Below are positions 32,297-34,433 of a DNA stretch of 64,000 nucleotides, one piece after another. The number at the start of each line of letters is the position of its first letter. Position 1 is the stretch's first letter. This DNA is from Halovenus aranensis (GTDB taxonomy: Archaea > Halobacteriota > Halobacteria > Halobacteriales > Haloarculaceae): contig NZ_FNFC01000004.1 of the NCBI RefSeq assembly GCF_900100385.1, positions 124,001 through 188,000 of the forward strand, in the 5' to 3' direction. A program made the translations under genes and the position numbers. Below the pieces are notes generated by a model, which did no database searches, had not been told where the DNA came from, and worked only from the letters and a program-made list of their open reading frames with translations.

Positions 32297-32492
32297 ACGA
32301 AGCCACGGTTGACAGCGACAGGGCACGAGCGCAATCTTTTTGACCGGTGGCGAGATAGGGGGAGGTATGATGGTAGGTGTCCGTTTTACAGGCCCGCTGT
32401 GAGCAACACCTGCCAGTTCTGTCGTGCGCTGGTCCCGAGCAGCCACGGCGTCAGCGCGGTCCTGAACGCGTTCTCTCGGGGGAGGTATACTG
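32297..32492 (+). promoter_or_regulatory. Structured leader of thrS with duplicated ribosome-binding module
   Basis: An 11-base element GGGGGAGGTAT occurs at 32358-32368 and again at 32478-32488, exactly 120 bases apart, each just upstream of an ATG. Between them are two hairpins. In the first, GGTAGGTGT (32372-32380) pairs with ACACCTGCC (32406-32414), with an inner ACAG/CTGT stem (32388-32391/32397-32400). In the second, TGCGCTG (32425-32431) pairs with CAGCGCG (32452-32458). A T-rich promoter-like box is at about 32335-32342. The layout suggests a regulated leader. Confidence 0.55.
32367..32402 (+). CDS. Possible 11-residue upstream ORF in the thrS leader
   Basis: The frame reads ATGATGGTAGG and on to TGA, giving MMVGVRFTGPL. 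Its start is embedded in the first GGAGGT module and lies about 25 bases after the T-rich box, so it could be translated leaderless. The stop falls in the first hairpin, so ribosome position would affect folding. It contains one threonine codon. It may be a regulatory leader peptide or an accident. Confidence 0.3.
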   Translation: MMVGVRFTGPL

Positions 32493-34433
32493 ATGTCACG
32501 ACAAGCGTCTACCATAACTGTCGTCCTCCCGGACGGCTCGGAGATGGAAGTTGAGCAGGGTGCAACGGTCGAGGATGTCGCCCACGAAATCGGTCCTGGA
32601 CTGGGCCGGGATACGGTCGCGGGCGTCGTCGACGGTGACTTGGTCGACAAAGCGACACCGCTGACCGAGGACTGTCGGATCGAAATCGTCACAGAGAGCA
32701 GTGACGAGTATCTCGACGTGCTCCGTCACACCGGCGCTCACGTCTTCGGGCAGGCTCTCCAGCGACTGTACCCCGAGGCAAAGCTGGCTATCGGTCCCCC
32801 GACCGACGATGGGTTCTACTACGATATTGCAGGCGTCGAACTCGACGAGGACGACCTCGAAGACATCGAAGCCGAGATGGAGAATATTGTCGAGGCGGAC
32901 TACGAACTGCAGCGAGAGATTCGCTCCCACGACGAGGCCGTCGATGCCTACGACGATAACCCCTTCAAGCAGGACATTCTCGCCGACGAAGCCGCCGGCG
33001 AAGACACCGTTTCCTTCTACGTCCAGGACGACTGGGAAGACCTCTGTCAGGGCCCTCACGTCGACTCGACGGGCGATATCGGCGCGATTACGCTGCTCGA
33101 AATGTCGGCTGCCTACTGGCGGGGCGAGGAGGAAAACGACCAGCTCACCCGCGTCTACGGTACCGCGTTCGAGAGCGAAGACGACCTCGAGGCGTTCATC
33201 GAGCGCCGCGAGAAGGCAAAAGAGCGCGACCACCGGAAAATCGGCCGTGAGATGGATCTGTTCTCGATTCCAGACCACTCGCCGGGCTGTGTGCACTTCC
33301 ACCCTAACGGGATGGAGATTCGCCGCGAACTCGAAGACTACATTCGGAACAAAAACGACGAACTCGGCTACGACGAGGTCTGGACGCCGGAGCTAAACAA
33401 GGCAGAGCTCTGGAAGCCGACCGGCCACTACGACAACTTCAAAGAGAACGGCGAGATGTTCGCCTGGGAGCAAGACGAGACCGAATACGGTCTCAAGCCG
33501 ATGAACTGCGCGAACCACGCCCACGTCTACCAGGAGGGGCAGTACTCCTATCGGGACCTTCCGGTCCGGTTCTCGGAGTTTGGCACCTGCTACCGAAACG
33601 AGCAGTCCGGAGAGCTGTCGGGACTGCTCCGGGTCCGTGGGTTTACCCAGGACGACGGCCACGCGTTCATCCGACGCGACCAGATTGAGGACGAAATCAC
33701 GCAGACGCTATCGAGCATCGAAGACATCTACGACAGATTTGGCATCGAGATTGCCTACAAACTGGAGACTCAGGGCGACAACGCCGTCGGAAGCGACGAC
33801 ATCTGGGAGGAGGCGACGGAGGGTCTGCGGGACTCGCTCGAATCGCTCGGACTCGACTACGACGTCGAGCACGGCGAGGCTGCGTTCTACGGCCCGAAAA
33901 TCGCACTCAACGGTATCGACGCGCTCGGTCGCGAGTGGACCATCGGCACCGTTCAACTCGATTTCAACATTCCGGAGCGTCTGGACTTGAGCTATGTCGG
34001 TAAAGACAACGAGGACCACCGGCCGGTGATGGTCCACCGCGCGCTCCTCGGTAGTATCGAGCGCTTCATGGGCGTGATGATAGAGCACTTCAACGGGAAC
34101 TTCCCGACCTGGCTCGCGCCAGAGCAGGTCCGGATTCTGCCGGTGTCTGACGACAACATCGGCTATGCCAAGCGGCTCAAAAACGCCGACCTCGGTGACT
34201 TCCGGGTCGAAATCGAAGACCGCTCGTGGACGGTCGGGAAGAAAATCCAGCAGGCCCACGACGACCGAGTGCCCTACATGCTCATCGTCGGCGACAACGA
34301 GGAGGAGGCAGGTACGGTCTCTGTCCGTGACCGCTTCGAGAACGAATCCAAAGACATCGAAGTCGAGGCGTTCCGCAACCACCTCGCTGACGAGGTCGAG
34401 AGTCGACGCGTCGAACCCGACTTCCTGGAATAG
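32493..34433 (+). CDS. thrS: Threonyl-tRNA synthetase, bacterial-type with editing domain
   Basis: Charges tRNA-Thr and edits mischarged serine. The order of the 646 residues is: TGS domain (about 5-68), second-additional editing domain with His79 and His83 ([11 protein letters not shown]) and the CQGPH motif (Cys185, His189), class II catalytic core (motif 2 near [17 protein letters not shown], zinc ligand in [11 protein letters not shown], motif 3 near [14 protein letters not shown]), and a C-terminal anticodon domain. Haloarchaea carry this bacterial/eukaryotic kind rather than the archaeal editing-deacylase form. The start has GGAGGTATACTG upstream. Regulation may involve the preceding leader. 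Confidence 0.96.

Follow-up and report, generated by a model that had tools for sequence, protein, structure and literature searches.

In bacteria, synthetase and amino-acid genes are the classic targets of leader peptides and T-boxes. Leader-peptide attenuators such as thrL (thr operon) and pheM (pheST) of Escherichia coli belong to a class that usually carries runs of cognate codons, and thrS of the same species has a translational operator by which ThrRS represses its own synthesis. For archaea, no report of a synthetase leader peptide was found in the open-access literature searched, subscription papers lying mostly outside that search. In Haloferax volcanii, 72% of the protein-coding transcripts are leaderless, and the available part of the same report describes, for this one species, uORFs of 15-31 aa with unknown role in long 5'-UTRs (PMC4983044). 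Judging from sequence conservation, the thrS mRNA of many haloarchaea probably has at its start a very short and strongly conserved uORF that contains a Thr codon, with the consensus M-[VA]-G-x-[RCYH]-F-T-..., directly 5' of thrS.

The thrS leader of Halovenus

The window, a stretch of 64,000 nt from the genome of Halovenus aranensis, contains the following features at this locus:

32327..32342, + strand, predicted promoter GAGCGCAATCTTTTTG, with a BRE-like CGCAAT and a TATA-like CTTTTTG, found 5' of the uORF in Halovenus loci
32358..32368, + strand, first copy of GGGGGAGGTAT, overlapping the predicted transcript start and common only to Halovenus salina (locus L016)
32370..32402, + strand, uORF ATG GTA GGT GTC CGT TTT ACA GGC CCG CTG TGA (MVGVRFTGPL*)
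32372..32380, + strand, 5' arm of stem P1, GGUAGGUGU, overlapping uORF codons 1-4
32388..32390, + strand, invariant threonine codon ACA of the uORF
32406..32414, + strand, 3' arm of stem P1, ACACCUGCC, a few nt past the uORF stop
32421..32449, + strand, second hairpin P3, GUCGUG.GCUG (32421-32431) with CAGC.CACGGC (32440-32449), C32427 being bulged
32478..32485, + strand, Shine-Dalgarno-like GGGGGAGG of thrS, in the second copy
32493..34433, + strand, thrS, threonyl-tRNA synthetase, 646 aa

The layout that an earlier note had read from this DNA was confirmed. GGGGGAGGTAT occurs at 32358-32368 and 32478-32488, at a spacing of exactly 120 bases, each time directly 5' of ATG codons: the second copy is followed by ACTG and the ATG of thrS (32493), being within 4 nt of it, and the first overlaps the tandem ATGs at 32367 and 32370. 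From the first, additional in-frame ATG the uORF has the 11 codons noted before (MMVGVRFTGPL*), the conserved start being the second ATG (32370). The nested hairpin, P1, has 9 pairs including one G-U, with an inner ACAG/CUGU, and the stop of the uORF (32400-32402) falls within it. The second hairpin is also present between the two copies.

The same note took the repeat for a duplicated ribosome-binding module and suggested looking for a conserved 120-base spacing; the relatives bore out neither. GGGGGAGGTAT has only four copies in the whole 3.29 Mb genome, both strands considered. The predicted transcript start coincides with the first copy or follows it closely; among the relatives H. salina alone has this copy as well, and we therefore regard the duplication as a coincidence. 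The offset between uORF and thrS is 117 in H. salina vs 123 in the window, and the first GGGGGAGG is missing from H. rubra. The second-copy GGGGGAGG is found in both H. salina and H. rubra and, slightly altered, in another locus (L023). In family f7, most thrS genes showed no SD, and leaders such as that of L154 have a C/A-rich CAGCCACAGCC stretch before thrS when the SD is absent.

The closest thrS to that of the window encodes the chromosomal ThrRS of H. salina (92% identity). A second thrS of this species, on plasmid unnamed3 (NZ_CP112975.1), is 5'-truncated (residues 152-646, 93% identity) and has no leader.

A transcript start just 5' of the thrS ATG, which the earlier note had named as a finding that would speak against its leader, is not what the predicted promoter indicates, since this stands instead 5' of the uORF. 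The TATA-like box lies 30-33 nt from the uORF ATG in 90 genomes, and in relatives without the uORF, where thrS is apparently leaderless, it lies mostly 28-32 nt from the thrS ATG. Measured from the TATA box, the uORF AUG thus occupies the position that the start codon has in leaderless thrS genes, and the uORF is probably leaderless. Its ATG context has A at -3 in 86 of the 90 sites and G at +4 in all 90 (cf. PMC4574771).

Distribution and coding signature of the uORF

A DNA search of relatives retrieved the leader across the greater part of Halovenus, and a 24-base piece of the uORF in a different family with 96% identity; the plasmid collection gave no match. By ThrRS homology, a search blind to the leader, the uORF was found 5' of thrS in every Halovenus locus whose thrS start is intact, in two loci of Halosimplex type and, as a related uORF, in nanohaloarchaea. 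The uORF is likewise present, as MVGVRFTSRP*, in L010, a more diverged Halovenus locus. As a rule, the uORF has 10-14 codons.

A pattern combining a TATA box, a fixed gap and the uORF start was used order-wide. It matched in 119 of the 392 genomes, with about one site each, and in none of them when reversed as a control. All of the 90 sites opened precede thrS, at distances of 89-369 nt. Counted by hand, the pattern is present in 98 of the 102 f7 genomes (a family that is probably Natrialbaceae, judging from its size and by elimination), 9 of 9 of f6 and 1 of 3 of f10, as well as in 6 of 7 Halovenus genomes, in 3 of 3 of genus g14, which is Halosimplex by the tree, and in one genome each of f3 and genus g8. 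No matches were found in f4, f5, f12, f14 and f17 within this 392-genome sample. The family to which Haloferax volcanii belongs is among those without the leader in the genomes sampled.

Genomes missed by the pattern also carry uORFs. Halovenus G007 has MAEVSVTGRAL, and in two members of f10 MVGGYFTG.. follows a TATA box of a form outside the pattern. Two f7 genomes (G239 and G065; loci L251 and L252) have a 30-codon uORF ending in RFTRA[FV]ARF*, in which an in-frame insertion of 51 nt adds 17 codons N-terminally and moves the conserved Thr to codon 24. G211 and G350 (f7, genus g78) gave no match to this kind of ThrRS at E <= 1e-60 and probably use a different one. Since two of the f7 exceptions are extended and two are devoid of this ThrRS, the uORF is present in all 100 f7 genomes having this thrS.

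Thr stands at codon 7 in nearly all uORFs. Codon 7 is ACA in 104 of 104 haloarchaeal uORFs and codon 6 is TTT in 102 of them, under a pattern that itself demanded TTTAC[AG]; the two f7 exceptions to the pattern also have TTTACA, which therefore holds in all 100 f7 genomes. ACA makes up 2.5% of the Thr codons in f7 thrS and 21% in the genes of the window. Each uORF has a single conserved Thr codon and no run, which counts against a reading as a Thr attenuator.

Most thrS genes of Nanohaloarchaeota are preceded by a relative of this uORF, MK[GR]Gx[FLP]T. A ThrRS match was obtained in 24 of 28 genomes and, among those with a placeable thrS start, MK[GR][GA][CRYH][FLP]T uORFs are present in 15 and absent in six; in locus L239 the uORF is extended at its N-terminus. 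In 8 of 14 genomes tested (two of which haloarchaea), MK[GR]Gx[FP]T occurs a single time per genome, solely at thrS. The codon is Thr in 15 of 15 nanohaloarchaeal uORFs, being ACC in 7, ACT in 5 and ACA in 3, so that it is the amino acid that is conserved and not one triplet.

In 63 uORFs of f7, the two sense codons before the stop (R, F) have 14 and 13 third-position changes and 2-3 changes at first and second positions. Length changes preserve the frame, including the 51-nt insertion. By this third-position bias and the frame-preserving insertion, the uORF is under coding constraint, and the bias, the frame-preserving indels and the invariant Thr codon together suggest that it is translated. 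The G-x-[RCYH]-[FLP] preceding Thr is also conserved, and peptide or RNA sequence beyond Thr may matter. Taking the loci together, nearly every codon 5 is a YRY triplet, and codon 6 consists of pyrimidines (TTT, CTT, CCC, CCT) with no case of TTC, which may point to a constraint on the nucleotides ahead of the Thr codon.

Other synthetase genes were located with PF00133, PF00587 and PF00579 in two f7 genomes and one f6 genome, and scanned for a TATA box plus uORF. Only three isolated uORFs were detected, and none was common to more than one of the three genomes, whereas each of these gave a positive result at thrS. A general uORF rule for synthetases was consequently discarded for these genomes, as the uORFs there are sporadic and unshared.

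In a quick ThrRS tree, with a spurious long branch from a misoriented row (L108), the uORF label is strongly clustered, with 9 changes (at least 4 forced) vs 33.7 when shuffled. The uORF is seen in a Halovenus clade, itself placed within the leaderless thrS of haloarchaea, in a clade of f7, f6 and Halosimplex, and in nanohaloarchaea. This could be a result of an ancestral uORF followed by losses, or of transfer of thrS together with its leader. One locus (L135, genome G024) has a Halosimplex-type uORF (MAGDCFTGGPRAP), yet its ThrRS groups near Haloarcula, which suggests an exchange of leader or gene.

RNA stems and possible control of thrS

Folded as a single sequence, the leader is not unusually stable (z -0.13), and support for structure rests therefore on conservation. 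In the relatives, the 5' arm of P1 corresponds to uORF codons 1-4 and the 3' arm usually lies 3-9 nt past the uORF stop. P1 is paired in 248 of 248 cells of 31 f7 sequences, where it is mostly invariant. When arms are matched within the same leader, 57% reach at least 9 of 10 pairs vs 11% in shuffles (which, here and for P3, ignore relatedness), with compensatory classes, the clearest match being GGCAGAAGTC with GAGTTCTGCC. In a mixed alignment, P1 covariation is modest across lineages, 24-40 of 500 shuffles being as high. In L252 the arms of P1 look compensatory by eye, but this is matched by 20% of shuffles. For P3, tested in f7, there are 21 cells changed on both sides vs 7.9 in shuffles (0/500), a signal lost when the stem is slid; RNAalifold on the mixed alignment A2 loses the register of P3, and a P3-like hairpin was seen by eye in relatives. 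The earlier note had placed its leader in doubt should relatives share neither uORF nor stems nor covariation, and both the uORF and the stems are conserved. L154 and other f7 leaders have an extra hairpin 5' of thrS, GAACTTC-N5-GAAGTTC (GGACTTC..GGAGTCC in L153).

The best explanation, which we hold with moderate confidence, is a ribosome-mediated control of thrS through the supply of Thr-tRNA, via the uORF Thr codon inside P1. The computational results that it draws on are the conserved uORF, its specificity for thrS, its coding constraint, the promoter geometry, P1 and P3. The thrS transcript would begin at, or 1-2 nt 5' of, a leaderless regulatory uORF, whose Thr codon would be enclosed by P1, with the first uORF codons as 5' arm and the 3' arm just past the stop. 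As a stem enclosing the uORF forms only without a ribosome inside, P1 would read ribosome occupancy, a ribosome on the uORF holding it open. With scarce charged Thr-tRNA, the ribosome would stall at the Thr codon, and altered leader folding or downstream transcription would lead to more ThrRS. What we infer here is that the uORF is transcribed and translated, that ribosomes stall at Thr and in which direction thrS responds; given an invariant Thr codon and a strict attachment to thrS, a sensor of Thr-tRNA charge is the simplest reading.

The output could be thrS translation initiation or a factor-dependent termination by FttA/aCPSF1, a route of archaeal termination (PMC11616081). With a modelled ribosome at the Thr stall vs at the stop, the accessibility of the thrS start showed no consistent change in direction, and no terminator-type U-run was noticed by eye between uORF and thrS. 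Masking of the SD by the 3' arm of P1 was rejected as a general mechanism, since most f7 thrS have no SD and masked-ribosome folding was inconsistent.

Any uORF that opens the mRNA is bound to influence thrS, and ribosomes would be slowed at the rare TTT and ACA whatever the supply; poor reinitiation could simply fix a low thrS expression with no sensing of threonine. We consider this unlikely, as it leaves unexplained the invariant Thr codon with varying triplets, the occurrence only at thrS among the synthetases scanned and the conserved stems. It is also quite unlikely that the peptide itself is the sensor, M-x-G-x-[RCYH]-[FLP]-T arresting in the exit tunnel upon threonine or another ligand and not upon tRNA charge: Gly3 and position 6 (F/L/P) are conserved in haloarchaea and nanohaloarchaea, but six residues would make a very short arrest peptide, position 5 tolerates the chemically unlike R, C, Y and H, and the variants IQLT and VSVT occur in Halovenus.

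The earlier note had proposed a cis-acting control of ThrRS synthesis, either by ribosome position or by binding of ThrRS or tRNA to an operator. Control by ribosome position on the uORF is well supported, by the conserved uORF and stems and by the predicted promoter 5' of the uORF; operator binding finds no support, as no loop resembling an anticodon is conserved and conservation of the leader is highest in its coding sequence. Repression of translation by ThrRS or another protein bound to the hairpins, as by ThrRS in E. coli, appears very unlikely, even if P1 and P3 are conserved 5' of thrS and an SD open to masking is present in many leaders outside f7. By inspection, the P3 loops are variable with no conserved NGU, for which an operator of the E. 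coli type was rejected; nanohaloarchaea keep the uORF while P1 is not recognised there, and the coding signature would be left unexplained. The least probable reading is a T-box-like tRNA-binding or a ligand-binding riboswitch, in which the invariant ACN triplet would be a specifier and the open frame incidental, given the third-position bias, the frame-preserving insertion, the conserved start and stop, and the absence of any leader match, T-boxes included, when the window and ten relatives were run through cmscan against Rfam 15, even at E <= 1. The few hits obtained fall outside the leader, in the Halosimplex locus L048, where a Guanidine-II riboswitch model matched inside the thrS coding sequence (1860-1912; 36.4 bits, gathering 32), probably by chance.

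Comparison with known systems

If thrS is controlled by ribosomes responding to Thr-tRNA supply, the leader would represent a ribosome-mediated, amino-acid-sensing leader peptide in archaea, formed by a leaderless uORF in haloarchaea and nanohaloarchaea and acting without an intrinsic terminator, e.g. by FttA-dependent termination or re-initiation; we give this an even chance. A leader peptide with no 5'-UTR would, if true, make ribosome-position sensing independent of Shine-Dalgarno initiation. The thrS leader, carried by many of the sampled species, offers a defined and genetically tractable test of archaeal transcription-translation coupling.

The uORFs in the 5'-UTRs of Haloferax volcanii are likewise small ORFs 5' of haloarchaeal genes on the same transcript but, in the available part of that report, they are longer and their entries are not synthetase genes (PMC4983044). 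T-box riboswitches share with this locus a Thr triplet in a thrS leader and the proposed response to tRNA charging, and differ by their Rfam models, which have no match here, whereas our leader has a uORF under coding constraint and an archaeal host. The E. coli thrS operator precedes the same gene with a structured leader; the archaeal one has no conserved loop resembling the anticodon of tRNA-Thr, and its conserved core is a putatively translated uORF, absent from that operator. Like the thrL and pheM attenuators, the archaeal leader has a short uORF with cognate codon 5' of the gene, stems overlapping this uORF and, likely, a readout of ribosome position. Unlike them, it has no intrinsic terminator recognised, its uORF is probably leaderless with one conserved Thr codon, and P1 encloses the entire uORF.
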